Virus record (IMG/VR): IMGVR_UViG_3300047552_001367
Location: 1-30,784 of that record
Reading direction: 5' to 3' (one strand)
DNA: 30,784 bases
DNA from: a virus
In this document: positions 208 to 25,851 of the stretch, piece by piece
Layout: every line of letters begins with the position of its first letter
Position numbering within the stretch: the stretch's first letter is position 1
The notes under the pieces: model-generated
Told to the model about the DNA's origin: nothing
What the model saw: only the letters and a program-made list of their open reading frames with translations
Databases searched by the model: none
Program-made: the position numbers and the translations under genes

Positions 208-852
208 ATGAATGACAATACCACGTTAGAAATAAAAGCAGATGCTGCGACAGCGGTGCGTTCCGACATAGAGCGATATTTTAGCGGCAAATTTGTAGAC
301 GATGTTTTGAAGCTGCCGCAAGAGATTTTAGCCCTGACCGAGCTGGAACTTGAAAAAAAGTTTCATCCATCAACCATTGATTTTCTGGTTAGAAAAAATC
401 TTCATCTCAAGCTGAAACAGGCAAGAGACGCTGGTGTTATTGACAAGTTTGAATCGAAAGAAATTTATGAAGGACTTTGCACAAAAACAAATTTTTATGA
501 TCGAATACTTGTAAATCCATATAAAATGGCATGGCTTTTAATACCAATTCAAGCATATGAAGACCTAATTGAAGAGAGTTTCTTTCATGGCTTAAAGAAA
601 GTCCGTGAAATATTGGATATGCCGCTTACCGAAAAAAGCGCACCGCACATAATGAAGGCGCTTGAGTTTTTTACCAACCGTCACTTAGGTCCGGTCATTC
701 AGCGAATAGAGCAAAAGTCCATGAACGTTAATATCAATGGGAATAAAATAGCTGATTCAGTAGACACTGAAACACTTATGCAAAAATATGACGAGTTAAA
801 ATCTAAGCTGTTAAAACCCGTGGAAGAAACTTTTGAACCAGAGCAAGATTGA
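208..852 (+). CDS. Putative terminase small subunit (TerS-like)
   Basis: 214 aa from the ATG at 208. The frame is open from an ATG at 133, but the extra 25 residues are Cys/Arg-rich and unlike the rest, neither start has a clear Shine-Dalgarno, and the promoter at 173-201 would start RNA at about 208, so a leaderless start is possible. The protein is helical and charged. Near its end it has a segment ending EQKSMNVNINGNK, a beta-like stretch resembling the C-terminal part of some TerS proteins. Position also supports TerS: it sits directly before TerL and overlaps it by 20 nt. TerS proteins recognise phage DNA and load the large subunit. The assignment rests mainly on context and weak resemblance; an unrelated phage protein is possible. 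Confidence 0.6.
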   Translation: MNDNTTLEIKADAATAVRSDIERYFSGKFVDDVLKLPQEILALTELELEKKFHPSTIDFLVRKNLHLKLKQARDAGVIDKFESKEIYEGLCTKTNFYDRILVNPYKMAWLLIPIQAYEDLIEESFFHGLKKVREILDMPLTEKSAPHIMKALEFFTNRHLGPVIQRIEQKSMNVNINGNKIADSVDTETLMQKYDELKSKLLKPVEETFEPEQD

Positions 853-11112: not shown

Positions 11113-11214
11113 ATGAACAAGCGAACAAGAATGTATTTAGTTGAAGAGGGTGGGCTGCTGACCATGATATTGGAATCATCTGCATGGGGCCGAACTGATG
11201 ACCACACTCGTTGA
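11113..11214 (+). CDS. Possible 33-aa peptide before the NlpC/P60 gene
   Basis: ATG at 11113 preceded by TAGGAGATAT, one of the better ribosome sites in the region, 7 nt after the fibre-like gene. It encodes 33 residues beginning MNKRTRMYLVEEGGL with no membrane segment, and overlaps the next gene by 17 nt. Its main use may be to carry ribosomes to the ATG at 11198, which has no obvious ribosome site of its own. A regulatory leader peptide and a real small protein are both possible. Confidence 0.4.
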   Translation: MNKRTRMYLVEEGGLLTMILESSAWGRTDDHTR

Positions 11215-11626
11215 CTACGCAAAAAGATTCATAGGTTTGCCTTACATCTTTGGCGGTCAACATCCATCTTTGGGATTTGATTGTTCTGGCTTTATTCAAA
11301 TCATCACACAGTCTGTTGGCGTTGATCCAAGCGGCGATCAAACGGCAATGTCTTTATACAACTACTATGTTGCACAAGGGGCGAAGTCGCCGATAACAGC
11401 AGGGGCGCTTCTATTTTACGGCAAAAGCACTTATGCAATCACGCACGTTGCTTTTGCGATAAGCGAGCACCAGATAGTTGAAGCAGGTGGTGGTGACTCT
11501 ACGACTACGAATGTTGATCGGGCAATCCAGGCCGATGCGTTTATAAGAGTAAGGCCTGCTAATCACAGAAAAGATTTGGTTGCAGTGTTAATGCCAAAAT
11601 ATCCAGAGTGGGTTTTAAATGGATAA
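11198..11626 (+). CDS. NlpC/P60 family peptidoglycan hydrolase
   Basis: 142 aa, a single catalytic domain. The catalytic Cys lies in GFDCSGF (C29) and the catalytic His in ITHVAFA (H83), both in the standard NlpC/P60 setting. The usual third polar residue would fall near HQIVEAGGGD (H91 or E95), so it is not canonical. NlpC/P60 enzymes cut gamma-D-glutamyl-diamino acid or related peptide bonds in the cell wall. There is no signal peptide, so it would need a holin or delivery in the virion. It sits between the fibre-like genes and a block of small membrane proteins; the endolysin role is likely, a tail-associated wall peptidase is the alternative. Confidence 0.85.
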   Translation: MTTLVDYAKRFIGLPYIFGGQHPSLGFDCSGFIQIITQSVGVDPSGDQTAMSLYNYYVAQGAKSPITAGALLFYGKSTYAITHVAFAISEHQIVEAGGGDSTTTNVDRAIQADAFIRVRPANHRKDLVAVLMPKYPEWVLNG

Positions 11627-15434: not shown

Positions 15435-15775
15435 TAAGCCTACCTGAATTTATATTAAAGGACGTTGAAGACGCTTATGTGAGAGAAAACTTTAAGCGTC
15501 TGGCCTTGTTTTTTCAGGACTTTCCACTGTTTCGTGGGGAGTGGAAATTTTTTGAGATAACCACCACAAAAGCCGAAACAAATTTAAGGGTGTTTCACGG
15601 TCTAGGATTTAAGCCTTTAGACGTGATAAATACCTCGACAACAGGGGCTGGAACTGCAACTTTTAATTACGCACTATTTGACGAGCAAAGTATAGACATT
15701 ACGACGACAGATGCTTGCGTAGTTCGATGCTTTATCGGAGCATATAAAGAAGAATCATCAAGGGTGGGTAGATAA
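15431..15775 (+). CDS. Small virion-associated protein
   Basis: 114 aa. N-terminal helix (SLPEFILKDVEDAYVRENFK) followed by a beta domain with VFHGLGFKPLDVI, a segment that recurs in short phage structural proteins. It is coupled at both ends: ATGA overlap with the nozzle gene and TAATG overlap with the adaptor gene. Two Cys close together near the C-terminus (DACVVRCF). Likely a tail or neck accessory protein; the exact part is unknown. Confidence 0.65.
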   Translation: MISLPEFILKDVEDAYVRENFKRLALFFQDFPLFRGEWKFFEITTTKAETNLRVFHGLGFKPLDVINTSTTGAGTATFNYALFDEQSIDITTTDACVVRCFIGAYKEESSRVGR

Positions 15776-16476
15776 TGGCTTACAAAACAAAGCTTCAAGT
15801 TGTCACGAAAATTGAGCGTGACCTAGACCTTGAAGAAGAAGAGTTTATACAGCCCGATGAGATGACAGAAATCATCAATGACGGTATCACAATCATTGAA
15901 GCCCACATGAACACGCTTGGCCTTCGTGACCAGTATTTTCTCACACGCACCACTTTGAATTTGGTTAATGGAACTGCTGACTATTCTTTGCCAACAAATC
16001 TTTACGAAGGTAAAATTAAGGAAGTCATCTATTCAAACGGCGCAACTATTTACGGCGTAAAGCCACTGACAGGATCATCTTCGGCTGAAGAGATCGCACA
16101 CTTAAATAGATTTTCTACGACTGAGTATTACAGATATAGAATTAGAAACGACTCCTCATCAGCAATATATTTTCAGCTCATCCCTGCTGCTCGTGAAACA
16201 GCCACTGGTGTTATCATCATTGAGCACTTCAGAGACCTAGCGCGTGTGTCGGCAGACGCTGATTTAGTTGAGGTGCCAGAGATTGCTTTGCAATTTCTTT
16301 ATCAATTTATTCGCGTTAAAGTTTACGAAAAAGAAGGCAGTGCGCTTTTGCCAATGGCTAAAGAAGATTTGCAAAAGATAGAAGAGTTGATGATTGCGAC
16401 TCTTCAAGGTCAACTCGCTGATGATTCGAATAATTATGTTGAGATGGATAAATCAATTTTTGAGGAACATTCATAG
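15775..16476 (+). CDS. Head-tail adaptor / tail tubular A-like protein
   Basis: 233 aa, TAATG start. Helical N-terminus (LQVVTKIERDLDLEEEEFIQ, then MTEIINDGITIIEAHMNTLG) followed by a beta stretch with NLVNGTADYSLPTNLYEGK and a helical C-terminus. This helix, LP-turn and helix layout matches podovirus adaptor proteins such as T7 gp11 and related P22 gp4-type connectors, which sit under the portal and join it to the nozzle. Location two genes after the nozzle gene agrees. I am fairly sure of the class, less of the subfamily. Confidence 0.75.
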   Translation: MAYKTKLQVVTKIERDLDLEEEEFIQPDEMTEIINDGITIIEAHMNTLGLRDQYFLTRTTLNLVNGTADYSLPTNLYEGKIKEVIYSNGATIYGVKPLTGSSSAEEIAHLNRFSTTEYYRYRIRNDSSSAIYFQLIPAARETATGVIIIEHFRDLARVSADADLVEVPEIALQFLYQFIRVKVYEKEGSALLPMAKEDLQKIEELMIATLQGQLADDSNNYVEMDKSIFEEHS

Positions 16477-16899
16477 ATGGAAGTGCGGGCCTTTTCAAAA
16501 GACGAATGGCGTAAGGTTTCAAAAGAAATCCACCGCTATGCTTTTAATGAAATCATCGACGATGACCTAGAGACGATTTCACTTGCTCTTATGGCCATGA
16601 AAGATGAAACGCCACAGGCTTACTGCACGTTAATTGATATGGATAAATACACCTGCTACATGCAGCATGGTGGGGCACTGCCAGCGGCTAAGGGCACAAT
16701 CAACGTAGCCAAAGGTTATGTGAAAATGGTTGAGTGGGTGAAGAATAAATATCCACGAATTACGACGAGAATAAGAAACGATAACGTGAGCATGATAAAA
16801 CTAGCTCTTGGTGTTGGGTTTAAAATCGTAGGCGTAGAAGTTTATGAGGATGGCGTTTTTTTAAGTTTAGTAAATAATTCGGAGAGTAAAGTATGCTAA
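16477..16899 (+). CDS. GNAT-fold acetyltransferase-like phage protein
   Basis: 140 aa, starting directly after the preceding stop codon. The C-terminal half reads like the last part of a GNAT fold: a helix after TRIRNDNVSMIKLALGVGFK, then VGVEVYEDGVFLSL, the usual N-x-x-x-x-x-A-x-x-x-GF-x-x-x-G pattern and last strand. The acetyl-CoA loop (normally R/Q-x-x-G-x-G/A) is weak; the matching area is HGGALPAAKGTINVAKG. Proteins of this type occur among podovirus virion genes, where the fold may be structural rather than enzymatic. Which of these applies here is open. Confidence 0.65.
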   Translation: MEVRAFSKDEWRKVSKEIHRYAFNEIIDDDLETISLALMAMKDETPQAYCTLIDMDKYTCYMQHGGALPAAKGTINVAKGYVKMVEWVKNKYPRITTRIRNDNVSMIKLALGVGFKIVGVEVYEDGVFLSLVNNSESKVC

Positions 16900-18035
16900 A
16901 GCGTTCAAAGTTCGACGGCATCAAATCAGTAAGCGGCCAAAAAAGAATTAAAGAGCTAGAGGCACAAAACGCTGCTGCTAAAGCCAGTGAAGCCGACAAG
17001 CTTAGACAGATTAATGAAATGGTTCAACGCGGCCCAGGCTACAGAGCTGTTGAGCAGAGCGCTCAAGAAAAAGCCGCTGGCGTTGTAGCTCCTGGTTTCG
17101 AAGGTGTGAGAGATGTAAAAACCGGGAAACTTTTAGATCAATATAAATCAGACGCTTACGCTGGTGAAGCGCTTCAGAAATTAAAGGGTCAAGCGTTTGC
17201 CGAAGGCGATAGCCCATGGGCAAAAATGCAGCTTGAAAAGCAAGCGCTTGAACAATCACAAGGTCGCGATCAAGCGGCAAGCTCACAAGCTCAGGCACTG
17301 GCGCAAGCGCAGTCAAACCTCATGCGACAAGGTGGACTGTCTTCAGGAGCTAGAACACGCATGGCCATGCAGGGAGCTAAAGACATGGCACTTGCCCAGC
17401 AGAGAGTAAATGCGCAAGGGATTGGCCAGCGCTTAGGCATTCAAGAGCAAGACTTAAATCGCAAGCAGGATTTACTTGGTAAATTTGGTGACGCTGAAAG
17501 TGCAGCGAATGAGAAAAACATTGGCCGCATGAGTGAAGATGTAAGGGCCGGAAGTGCCTTTGACATGGAAAGATACGGTCAGCAGATGGGCGCTTATGGG
17601 GCGGCTAAAACTGCTGAGGCGCAAAGAGCAGCTGCTGGAAGCGGTGGAAAGTGCTTCTTTGAAGATTCAAAAGTTTTAATGAACGACATGACGGTGAAAC
17701 CAATCTCACAAATTAAATCAGGCGAGGTCATATTCGCAGGCGGTCTTGTTTTGGCGAGCCGAAGTTATTACAGCGCTGAAGGCTTTGAGCTTTATGATTA
17801 TGACGGTGTGTTTTTAACGGGATCTCACTCTGTTAAAGAGTGCGGCGAATGGAAGCACGTTGAAGATTCTTTTAAAGCTAAAAAGACAAACATGCGGGCC
17901 AAAGAAGTTTACACGCTTGTTACAGAAAATCATTTCATCGTGGCTAACAAAGTTGTGTTCTCAGACGATGTCGAGACAAATGAAAACTTAATAGACGAGG
18001 CGCAGTCACTTAAGGCGCTTAATAAAGGGGCGTAG
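16893..18035 (+). CDS. Virion-type protein with C-terminal Hint autoprocessing domain
   Basis: 380 aa, ATG after GGAGAG, overlapping the previous gene by 7 nt. Residues 1-250 are low-complexity, Ala/Gln/Lys-rich and helical, like internal (ejection) virion proteins. A glycine-rich joint (AAAGSGGK) leads to Cys254, from which a Hint-type domain starts: block A CFFEDSKVLMNDMTVKPISQ and IKSGEVI; block B LTGSHSVK with H312; block F VYTLVTENHFIVANKVV with H347. The block G His-Asn of inteins is absent (VVFSDD instead), and 25 residues follow. This fits a Hedgehog- or BIL-type domain that cuts at its own N-terminus (between Lys253 and Cys254) but does not splice. The cut would free the virion part, or join it to a nucleophile. 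Seen: the motifs. Inferred: the activity. Confidence 0.75.
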   Translation: MLKRSKFDGIKSVSGQKRIKELEAQNAAAKASEADKLRQINEMVQRGPGYRAVEQSAQEKAAGVVAPGFEGVRDVKTGKLLDQYKSDAYAGEALQKLKGQAFAEGDSPWAKMQLEKQALEQSQGRDQAASSQAQALAQAQSNLMRQGGLSSGARTRMAMQGAKDMALAQQRVNAQGIGQRLGIQEQDLNRKQDLLGKFGDAESAANEKNIGRMSEDVRAGSAFDMERYGQQMGAYGAAKTAEAQRAAAGSGGKCFFEDSKVLMNDMTVKPISQIKSGEVIFAGGLVLASRSYYSAEGFELYDYDGVFLTGSHSVKECGEWKHVEDSFKAKKTNMRAKEVYTLVTENHFIVANKVVFSDDVETNENLIDEAQSLKALNKGA

Positions 18036-18533
18036 GTGGATAAAAACCTCGAAACATTAAGTTCAATGATTACTGATTTCAGTCAAGCAGCTGAGCTAAC
18101 TCCAGCCTTAATTGAAAACAGAAGATCAAGAATTTGTGAGCTTGAGTCGGCGATGAAAAGCCTGCCAGATTCTTACAACATGGAAGAATTTAATGAGGGA
18201 AAAATAACTCATCATTTCGGCACTGGCGTTTATGGTAGAGAATTATTTATCCCAAAGGGCAATGTAATCGTTAGTAAGATCCACCGAGGAAAAACTTTTA
18301 ACGTAATCGCCAAGGGTGTGATTTCTGTAATTTGCCCTCACAACGGGTATAACACTTACGAAGGCCCGCACTGTTTTGTGTCTGAGCCATTCACAAAAAG
18401 AATTGTAATAGCTCACGAGGATACGCTGTGGATTACAAGTCACGGCACACACAAAACCGATCTTGATGAAGTTGAAGAAGAGATAATTGCTAAAGATTTT
18501 GAAGAATTAAAATTATTAAAAGGGGATAAGTAA
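18036..18533 (+). CDS. Cupin-like protein of the virion gene cluster
   Basis: 165 aa, GTG start directly after the Hint-protein stop. The N-terminal 50 residues are helical; from about residue 58 there is a compact beta domain: THHFGTGVYGRELFIPKG, then VIVSKIHRGKTFNVIAKGVI, and a later strand with TKRIVIAHEDTLWITSHGTH. Spacing of His and Gly residues matches a single-domain cupin barrel with possible metal-binding His. Such proteins are found among podovirus tail or ejection genes. The substrate, if any, is unknown; a structural use of the fold is possible. It may work with the Hint protein, since the genes abut. Confidence 0.65.
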   Translation: MDKNLETLSSMITDFSQAAELTPALIENRRSRICELESAMKSLPDSYNMEEFNEGKITHHFGTGVYGRELFIPKGNVIVSKIHRGKTFNVIAKGVISVICPHNGYNTYEGPHCFVSEPFTKRIVIAHEDTLWITSHGTHKTDLDEVEEEIIAKDFEELKLLKGDK

Positions 18534-23332: not shown

Positions 23333-23779
23333 TTAAAAGCCCATTTCGTCGTTAGTTGCGCCAGGTGCGAAATTATGTAGCGGTTTTTTTGGCGTTGCTA
23401 GCGTAGTCGTTTGCGCTCTTGGCGTTTTAACTTCAGCCTCATCAGTTTGGCGATCACCTATAAATTCAATTTTATCTGCCAAAATATCAGTTGAATATTT
23501 CTTAACGCCATCAACCTCATAAGAGCGCGTTTTTAATTTCCCCTCTAAATAAACCTGTCGGCCCTTAGTTAAATACTTAGCCGCAACTTCTGCAAGCTTA
23601 CCGAACACGCTAACCCGGTGCCACTCAGTCTGTTCTTTCTTTTCGCCTGTCGTTTTATCAGTCCAAGACTCTGACGTCGCAACTGAAAAATTTGTGACTG
23701 TGTTGCCGTTCTCTAGCTGTTTAGACTCAGGGTCTTGACCCAAACGCCCTAAGATAATTACTTTGTTTATTCCTGACAT
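23333..23779 (-). CDS. ssb: Single-stranded DNA-binding protein
   Basis: 148 aa, typical bacterial/phage SSB length. The OB-fold opens with [17 protein letters not shown], followed by [36 protein letters not shown] and [16 protein letters not shown], all in the standard order. The tail after residue 115 is flexible and ends NDEMGF, a variant of the acidic DDDIPF-type tip that recruits partner proteins. A GGAGAACAAAA ribosome site precedes the ATG. It would coat single strands made by the neighbouring exonuclease and feed the Sak4-like ATPase. Confidence 0.95.
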
Positions 23780-23791
23780 TTTTGTTCTCCT

Positions 23792-24190
23792 TTATTCCAT
23801 TTTTTTTAGCCGTTGAACAATTTCAAGAGCTAGTTTTTCATATAAATCTTTTTGTCTTTCAGAAGGATCATCCGACATATAATCAAGCGATGTTCCATGC
23901 TTTATGTCCTGCAAAGCATCGCAGCCTGAGCAAGAGCCGTAACCAACTTTTACATACCAGTATTCACTCGGCTGATAAGCCGAAGCAGCTATCACATAAA
24001 GAAGTGTTCCTTGATAATCACCGTCGTCAATTTCATGAATACGCTTTGGGTCTAGATCACCGTAATCGCCGGAGGATATAACTTCTATTGTTGCCTTAAC
24101 AATATCCAAATAACTTCCGGGATGCTTTTTAAAAGCTTTCCTGAGCTGGGATTTGTTGGCCATAAATCTATCAACGTAGTCTTGAATCAT
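23792..24190 (-). CDS. Unknown protein with paired Cys, recombination operon
   Basis: 132 aa from the ATG at 24190, chosen because it makes an ATGA overlap with the ATPase gene stop; the frame is open from a TTG at 24205. Features: a helical start (IQDYVDRFMANKSQLRKAFK), an acidic turn (EIDDGDYQGTLLYVIAASAY), and a segment EYWYVKVGYGSCSGCDALQD with a CxxC pair that could bind a metal. The second half is helical. Sequence of this kind recurs in phage genomes as an unnamed protein. Function unknown. Confidence 0.7.
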   Translation of the reverse strand: MIQDYVDRFMANKSQLRKAFKKHPGSYLDIVKATIEVISSGDYGDLDPKRIHEIDDGDYQGTLLYVIAASAYQPSEYWYVKVGYGSCSGCDALQDIKHGTSLDYMSDDPSERQKDLYEKLALEIVQRLKKME

Positions 24191-24882
24191 TTCCCCAAAC
24201 ACCAATCTCTGATTAACTTTCCAGTCTCAGCCGTAATTTTAAACGCAGGCTTCCCTTGAAACAAAGAAGTGTTATCTTTCGCCACTGTTGCCAAATTTGT
24301 TTCTTGATCTAAATCAAATTGCAACATCCAGCGATACTCAGTTCCCTCACGCTGAATGTCTTTCACTCCCACACGCTTAGGTTGAACTTTTCCGTTTGCT
24401 CCCGGTTCCATAACGTAATCCGTTTTTTTCTTCACTGTGCAAATGATATGAATCGGTGATGATAAAATTTTATTAAACACAGCCTCATGCTTTGGCGTTA
24501 TCTTCTTCCATGCAGTGAAAGAATTCTTAGTTACCTCACTTGCGTCCTGGTGCATGTCAAGTGAGCCGCCAATACCTGACCACTCGTCACTGATCGAATC
24601 AATAATCAAAACCTTAAGCCCTGCTTTTTCAGCGGCAGAAATTCCTTCGATAAATTTGTCTGGTGAAAAAGGTGGAGTCATTTCTAGAATCTTGAAATTA
24701 CCCTTATCAAGATAACACTGTGCCCGACCGCTTTCTGTCTGGAGCACTCCACAATTAGACAAATCACCGCCCAAGATTCCTTTGGCGATCTCCAAAGAAC
24801 TCCACGTTTTTCCACCACCACTAGGCCCCGCCACACACATTTTCATTCGTATATCTTTACGACTTGCTTCTTTAAATTCCAT
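24187..24882 (-). CDS. Sak4-like RecA-type ATPase (putative annealase/recombinase)
   Basis: 231 aa. Walker A is VAGPSGGGKTWSSLEIA (G19-T26), Walker B is VLIIDSISDEW (D95), and a later strand IHIICTVKKKTDYV fits the RecA core. The length and motifs match the Sak4/AAA_24 group of short RecA-like proteins, which in some phages promote single-strand annealing together with SSB. The AGAAGGAGA ribosome site lies about 9 nt before the ATG, and the gene overlaps the exonuclease gene by 11 nt. The neighbours (RecE-like exonuclease, SSB) strongly support recombination. Confidence 0.8.
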   Translation of the reverse strand: MEFKEASRKDIRMKMCVAGPSGGGKTWSSLEIAKGILGGDLSNCGVLQTESGRAQCYLDKGNFKILEMTPPFSPDKFIEGISAAEKAGLKVLIIDSISDEWSGIGGSLDMHQDASEVTKNSFTAWKKITPKHEAVFNKILSSPIHIICTVKKKTDYVMEPGANGKVQPKRVGVKDIQREGTEYRWMLQFDLDQETNLATVAKDNTSLFQGKPAFKITAETGKLIRDWCLGK

Positions 24883-25792
24883 CTTCTGAAATCTCCTTCT
24901 TCACCGTCCACGCTGGCGGCATTAACATTAAATGTCCTTCGTCAATTCTTTCATCCTGATAACCTGGCCAAACACCACTCGATAAACTTCTCTCAAGCGC
25001 CTGAATCGCAGACAACCACTTCGCATGACCGCCGTCGATAAAATCCTCACTCGCCTCATAAGTTTGAACAACATAAGGAGCCTCAGTTTCAACAGCAATG
25101 AAATAGCCCTTAACCCTCTCATCAGTTAAAACTCTAATGCCTTCCATGTAATGCGCCATACTCAAATCATAATGCATGTTGTACGCCTGACGAGAAAACC
25201 CCGATGGCGAAACATCAGTCGTCGTCTTAAGCTCAATTAAATCACCGCCATTTATCCCATCAATTTTTGATCGCATTAAAAGACCAGTCAGCGGGCACTG
25301 CCAGAAATACGAAAGCTCAACTGTCGCCCCGCCTAAAAGGCGATCAGAAAGAGTGTGACTTCTAACGCTTTCGCAAATTTGAGCAGCAGTGACATGGTCA
25401 TATTCAGAAATCAAATCACGCCCACCACAATCAAGTAACGCCTGCGCCTTACGCTCTTTGCCTTCCTTCGTTCGCCCATCAACATCCGGCATAACGTAAA
25501 ACTCCGAATCATACTCATCAGGCGTCAACACCAGCGAATGAACCACCGACCCTAAAAGCATCGCCGCACTTCTTGCTGAGGGCAAAATTTTATCTATATA
25601 CTTCGCCCGGTAATGCATCGGCGAATGTCCGAAAAGATACTTCAATGAAGTAGAAGAATAATAATTAGAAATCGCGTGATAAACTTTATTCGGCAAATTC
25701 GCAATCACGCCGCGAAATTCGCCTGTGCGCAACGCCAGCTCAACTCCTGCCCCATCGACAGCGATGTTACGCCAATCATAATCTATACGCAT
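24872..25792 (-). CDS. RecE-like PD-(D/E)XK exonuclease
   Basis: 306 aa from the ATG at 25792, preferred over an open-frame TTG at 25816 because GGGG lies 6 nt upstream. Motifs of the RecE/exonuclease VIII group: a helix with LLGSVVHSLVL (H85), an acidic strand RSKIDGINGGDLIELKTT (D178, E187, K189) as the DxELK core, and a QAYNMHYDLSMAHYMEG segment with the Q/Y helix. Such enzymes digest one strand from a double-strand end, giving single strands for annealing. It is the first gene of the leftward operon. Confidence 0.82.
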   Translation of the reverse strand: MRIDYDWRNIAVDGAGVELALRTGEFRGVIANLPNKVYHAISNYYSSTSLKYLFGHSPMHYRAKYIDKILPSARSAAMLLGSVVHSLVLTPDEYDSEFYVMPDVDGRTKEGKERKAQALLDCGGRDLISEYDHVTAAQICESVRSHTLSDRLLGGATVELSYFWQCPLTGLLMRSKIDGINGGDLIELKTTTDVSPSGFSRQAYNMHYDLSMAHYMEGIRVLTDERVKGYFIAVETEAPYVVQTYEASEDFIDGGHAKWLSAIQALERSLSSGVWPGYQDERIDEGHLMLMPPAWTVKKEISEDGI

Positions 25793-25851
25793 TTCAAACC
25801 CCACACCCTTGACCAAACCCAGAATCTAATTTGGAATAAAGACACTTAACT

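Follow-up and report, generated by a model that had tools for sequence, protein, structure and literature searches.

Known Hint domains and the locus under study

Virus Hint domains of proven chemistry are mainly inteins, found in replication and packaging enzymes. The inteins of phages are the subject of earlier work (PMC3556154, PMC5259590, PMC5526547). In the established Hint chemistry, a cysteine at position 1 (Cys1) and the Thr and His of block B bring about an N-S acyl shift (PMC4031507, PMC7664689); inteins ending in an atypical Asp have also been investigated, to go by a reference given in PMC4031507. Other described Hint systems are the BIL domains of type B, the Hog domain of Hedgehog and the Vint domain (PF14623; Tetrahymena structure 8r2c), the last named in PMC2362128.

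The window, i.e., the whole stretch of 30,784 bases that was analysed, comes from a virus of bacteria with podovirus-like genes. One of its genes encodes a protein of 380 residues, free of internal stops, in which an Ala/Gln-rich part (the N-part) is followed by a second domain starting at Cys254 (Table 1). An earlier note on this DNA had read the second domain as a Hint domain with blocks A, B and F. This reading proved correct: residues 254-380 (127 codons, frame intact) are confirmed as a Hint domain by a strong profile match and a confident structural model, and the motifs lie where they were claimed. The whole is probably a virion protein with a self-removing C-terminal Hint module of a Vint/BIL-like type, in which an N-S acyl shift at Cys254, followed by hydrolysis, would free the N-part.

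The class 1 inteins share with this domain the fold and blocks A, B and F, and Asp358 of the window protein superposes on their terminal Asn. Unlike in these inteins, the terminal His-Asn is missing, as the earlier note had stated. Its place is taken by Ser357-Asp358, and Asp359, at +1, is not a nucleophile. The window domain also lies at the C-terminus, starting where Hint-less homologues end, and has no internal insertion site. With the BIL domains of type B, it has in common a short Hint, Cys1, the TxxH motif, the lack of a His-Asn end and an expected cleavage rather than splicing. BILs, however, have been described from variable regions of cellular proteins, whereas the window family occurs at the C-termini of viral proteins and has F(T/S/A)D instead of His-Asn. 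The Hog domain has the same fold (Z 12.6), a C-terminal position, a Cys1 nucleophile and no C-side reaction. The window differs from it by having no sterol-recognition region, since only 22 residues (359-380) follow the Hint core, and by Thr341 at position F:4. The Asp at F:4 (D46 of Hog) is used by Hedgehog and many inteins and is absent from the window.

Like Vint, the window domain is a C-terminal Hint-like domain without the intein end, and a C-terminal extension is shared in the fold. Vint has been described after VWA and Vwaint domains in eukaryotes, in contrast to the window family, which is carried by viral proteins; Pfam gave no VWA or Vwaint match in the N-part of the window protein, which is helical and Ala/Gln-rich. 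The C-terminal intramolecular chaperone autocleavage domains of phage tail spikes are comparable in one respect, a C-terminal self-cutting off a virion protein (expected in the window), but, to our knowledge, their fold and chemistry are unrelated to Hint.

Table 1. Features of the Hint-bearing gene and its neighbours in the window.
Feature	Position	Strand	Remarks
SU10-type head-tail adaptor	15775..16476	+	Anchors synteny and tree
140-aa syntenic neighbour, acetyltransferase-like by eye only	16477..16899	+	No Pfam match
Whole gene, 380 aa: Ala/Gln-rich N-part (probable virion protein) and C-terminal Hint domain	16893..18035	+	
N-part, residues 1-253	16893..17651	+	Homologous to Hint-less sister-virus proteins and to the N-parts of Hint-bearing L052/L103
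Gly-rich joint AGSGGK, residues 248-253	17634..17651	+	Coil in full-length model
Cys254 codon, expected nucleophile at the scissile Lys253-Cys254 bond	17652..17654	+	Cys in 95/95 relatives
Hint core, Cys254 to Asp358, 105 residues, blocks A-G	17652..17966	+	Profile, model, structure alignment
Block B, T309-G-S-H312 (TxxH)	17817..17828	+	Sequence and relatives
Block F, V339-V355 (VYTLVTENHFIVANKVV)	17907..17957	+	Sequence and relatives
Block G position F356-S357-D358, replaces intein His-Asn	17958..17966	+	Asp358 superposes on last intein residue
C-terminal tail, residues 359-380, helix 369-379 predicted	17967..18032	+	Vint crystal structure aligns through 379
Abutting 165-aa 'cupin-like' gene	18036..18533	+	PHROG tail fiber adhesin / short tail fiber protein; outside any Hint system

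Sequence evidence for the Hint domain

The Hint motifs of the window protein are Cys254-Phe (block A), T309-G-S-H312 (block B) and V339-Y-T-L-V-T-E-N-H347-F-I (block F). A profile built from 95 viral relatives, with the window left out, matched the protein with 101 bits over residues 254-375, against a best score of 9.6 bits in 2000 shuffles of the domain. As the pattern used in finding the relatives was derived from the window's own block B, this block was masked: with the 16 search-motif residues removed, 55.7 bits still remained, and each half of the domain matches on its own. A profile of the window and 46 viral relatives, containing no intein, found inteins in the PDB, namely NEQ068 (block B, E 0.0004) and PI-SceI (block A, E 0.002).

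Single-sequence searches gave less. In Pfam, Vint was the best match of the domain (E 0.00036, 20.8 bits) and was also found with the whole protein (E 0.004, 17.4 bits), both below the cut-off of 27 bits. No Hint match to the window protein was found in PHROGs or NCBIfam. Neither tblastn of the domain against 50,697 phage records nor whole-protein and Hint-only searches of viral contigs yielded a true relative; its divergence is too great for patterns of eight residues. Of the checks suggested in the earlier note, a profile search gave a weak Vint match for the single sequence, whereas the profile of the viral relatives matched the domain strongly, and structure prediction returned a Hint fold.

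Predicted fold

The AlphaFold2 model of residues 244-380, made with an alignment of 47 rows, is a Hint fold with a pLDDT of 91.5 and a pTM of 0.85. By VIA-align, the best matches include BIL2 6y75 (Z 13.7), Vint 8r2c (13.5), BIL 2lwy (12.9), Hedgehog 1at0 (12.6) and DnaB mini-inteins. Over 100-112 residues, the top chains of the BIL, intein, Vint and Hedgehog types superpose with an rmsd of 1.7-1.9. By the aligned ranges listed, residue 254 pairs with intein residue 1, and residue 358 with the last intein residue (for example 454 of PI-SceI 1dfa, 440 of Mtu RecA, 137 of Npu DnaE).

In the full-length model, the Hint domain keeps its high confidence after the coil of residues 248-253. The top match of this model is Vint 8r2c (Z 12.6), aligned over 252..379, the only one among the matches listed to cover the extra C-terminal helix. 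An extension common to the viral family and Vint bears on the origin of Vint.

The N-part shows long helices in the same model. The earlier note had called it Ala/Gln-rich and ejection-like; composition and helices agree with this, but no PHROGs, other library or PDB sequence names the protein. Gene position and composition are what suggest an ejection-like role for this probable virion protein. PHROG 11584 gave a weak match (E 0.08), a lead at most. Profile matches to picornavirus VP4 in the PDB were rejected as weak (E 0.03 and above) and probably due to composition.

A viral family of C-terminal Hint domains

A DNA pattern for block B (G-x-H-x-V-x3-G-x-W-x2-V-x-D) matched at least 119 loci in viral contigs. 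Of those listed, 111 have a Hint-like domain at the C-terminal end, and 95 of these are distinct. The window domain, 28-42% identical to relatives, is a diverged member of a large viral C-terminal Hint family. The family signature is present in the window as well: CF..., GG, Y-x-G, GxHxVxExGxWxxVxD(S/T) and F(T/S/A)D near the C-terminus. Cys1, Gly283-Gly284, Tyr303 and Asp358 show little or no variation, and 93 of the 95 have F(T/S/A)D or a similar motif, with the Asp kept, at the block G position. The median pairwise dN/dS in the domain among relatives is 0.12. Deviations of the window include Asp258 and Met266, both of them Gly in most relatives, and Ser259, a Thr in 94/95.

Some features suggest that the Hint fold could be kept as a structural or folding domain (a chaperone or a docking knob) with little or no cleavage. 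The residue before the Cys is Lys in the window, against Gly in 69/95 relatives, the Asp at F:4 is absent and this position is not conserved within the viral family, the block F His is replaced by Arg in most relatives, and a C-terminal helix extends beyond the catalytic core. We regard such a role as distinctly unlikely: it leaves unexplained that Cys1 is present in all 95 relatives though it lies outside the search motif, and that a scan with a block F pattern, which selected neither residue, returned four further members (L156, L159, L160 and L166), all with Cys1 and the block B His.

In its host proteins, the domain is found close to the C-terminus, often after a Gly-rich stretch. These hosts fall into 14 groups, including tail-fibre-like, Gly-zipper and large structural-looking proteins, and weak PHROG matches and sequence type suggest that they are probably virion proteins. 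In the family members tested, no Pfam or PHROGs model gave recognition above cut-off, and the same holds for NCBIfam with the window protein. A fold library of viral proteins already labels some phage proteins 'Hint domain containing', so that Hint domains in phages are known as such. The literature searched does not describe Hint domains at the C-termini of phage virion proteins, and this C-terminal family from uncultivated viruses appears undescribed.

Tandem Hint cassettes occur in the C-terminal part of the ORF in 13 of the 95 distinct members (L034, L045, L058, L059, L073, L074, L075, L076, L080, L117, L132, L145 and L146): an upstream Hint-like domain with a ...VVHN end is followed by one or two residues (K or KG) and then by the Cys of the terminal family Hint.

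Outside viral contigs, a stricter block B pattern found one true member in 257 Gb of prokaryotic genomes, L151, whose 5.9-kb contig, from a Syntrophus bin, is itself perhaps viral; the other three of the four matches were due to chance. Two family members, searched against the 50,697 phage records, gave no full-length relative. These occurrence searches cover members that carry the pattern or are similar to the two queries. A Gly-Lys-Cys joint was also considered as a class of its own and rejected: the pattern GGGK-CF-xx-GT returned two chance matches and two genuine inteins. The latter (L026 and L027) are large inteins in the TGGGK P-loop of helicase-like proteins.

Sister viruses without the domain

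Sister viruses were reached through relatives of TerL and a three-row profile of the N-part. The N-part occurs without Hint in eight loci (L017, the near-identical L018/L019, L020, L021, L022, L023 and L024), which represent at least six other viruses, two record pairs sharing a sample. All of these homologues except L022 end in (G/S)GG(G)KK-stop. At the same joint, the window protein reads ...AAAGSGGK and continues with Cys254, so that the domain directly follows a Gly-rich joint, as previously noted. As nearly all Hint-less homologues end here, a cut at Lys253/Cys254 would leave nearly the C-terminus that the sisters make directly. Elsewhere in the sister records (some may be fragments), no Hint was found; there is thus no sign of a Hint supplied in trans, and a split or trans arrangement was discarded.

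The nearest sister, L017, has no Hint, is 58% identical over the N-part and stands beside the window in the adaptor tree with full support (100/100). In the alignment, the N-part is 33-58% identical to the Hint-less sisters and 24-27% to the Hint-bearing L052 and L103. Together with L031, these two are more distant N-part homologues that carry a Hint at the homologous position. In the Hint tree, the three do not group with the window (modest support, long window branch); the adaptor tree shows two or more changes of the Hint state. The domain may have been acquired independently more than once, or acquired and in some lineages lost.

A domain missing in the nearest sister and sitting on a long branch might be a decayed intein, or a C-terminal extension gained by chance read-through, with no selected function. 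This explanation seems to us highly improbable. The 127-codon frame is intact with its catalytic motifs, more than 100 viral loci carry the domain near the C-terminus at a dN/dS of about 0.12, and inteins interrupt conserved enzyme motifs and retain His-Asn. With Hint-plus and Hint-minus versions of one protein at hand, Hint chemistry in the building or firing of virions becomes testable: the Hint-minus versions are natural controls and predict the exact cut.

Proposed reaction

For the self-removal that we favour, Cys254 of the folded protein, aided by Thr309 and His312, would attack the Lys253-Cys254 bond in an N-S acyl shift and form a thioester. Water, as the simplest acceptor, would resolve it. 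The N-part would be freed with the end ...AGSGGK, near the native ...GGGKK of the Hint-less sisters, and the 127-residue Hint fragment discarded. This would presumably take place during or after virion assembly. The same chemistry could make a Hint of the window type useful in protein engineering, as a small N-cleaving tag.

Cleavage without splicing, anticipated in the earlier note, fits what the sequence offers: block G has no His-Asn, and the Hint-less homologues end at the joint. Far-end cleavage and splicing are unlikely with Ser357/Asp358 in place of His/Asn and with Asp359, no nucleophile, at +1. Loss of the C-side reaction is a strong expectation; since Asp-ended inteins have been studied, it falls short of proof. 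Because of the Lys instead of Gly before the Cys and the absent F:4 Asp, the reaction could be slow, conditional or trigger-dependent.

Instead of water, another virion protein, a sugar or a lipid could capture the Cys254 thioester through an amine, hydroxyl or thiol, which would attach the N-part covalently, as Hedgehog is attached to cholesterol. Acyl transfer is what Hint domains are built for, relatives in the family are found on tail-fibre-like and Gly-zipper proteins, and the helix predicted in the tail after block G, part of the fold, could bind an acceptor. We nevertheless consider transfer unlikely: no Hedgehog-type sterol region follows the core, the sister viruses make the same protein without such a step, and no acceptor or partner gene, the adjacent cupin-like gene included, was seen to co-occur. 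A bolder proposal, to which we give little credence, is a distinct viral Hint class, with a near-invariant Asp for the terminal Asn, in which the Cys thioester would link virion proteins by a covalent bond to a specific acceptor, either another virion protein or a host surface molecule. If true, this would be a viral equivalent of the lipidation of Hedgehog, and the class would be related to the eukaryotic Vint.

Neighbouring genes

The genes around the N-part keep a conserved order: first the adaptor, then the N-part, the 140-aa gene, in some viruses the cupin-like adhesin, a small gene and two larger genes. The 140-aa gene precedes the N-part gene in the window and L017 and follows it in most relatives.

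The cupin-like gene abutting the Hint-bearing gene had been proposed as its possible partner. The relatives do not bear this out: the gene is present without Hint in L018/L019, L023 and L024, and it was not found in the Hint-bearing L052 and L103. One point in favour is L017, which is without both. The gene is no consistent Hint partner, and the proposal is not supported. The presence of this cupin-like/adhesin gene varies among close relatives, and its position differs among Vibrio, Alteromonas, Sphaerotilus and other phages.

Two further regions of the window can be mentioned. Positions 11198-11626 encode a small protein that matches minor tail protein PHROGs and has, by eye, an NlpC/P60-like FDCSGF motif. 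On the minus strand, positions 23333-25816 hold a recombination block, composed of an SSB, a gene of a conserved PHROG of unknown function with weak similarity to Sak4, and an exonuclease VIII-like gene.
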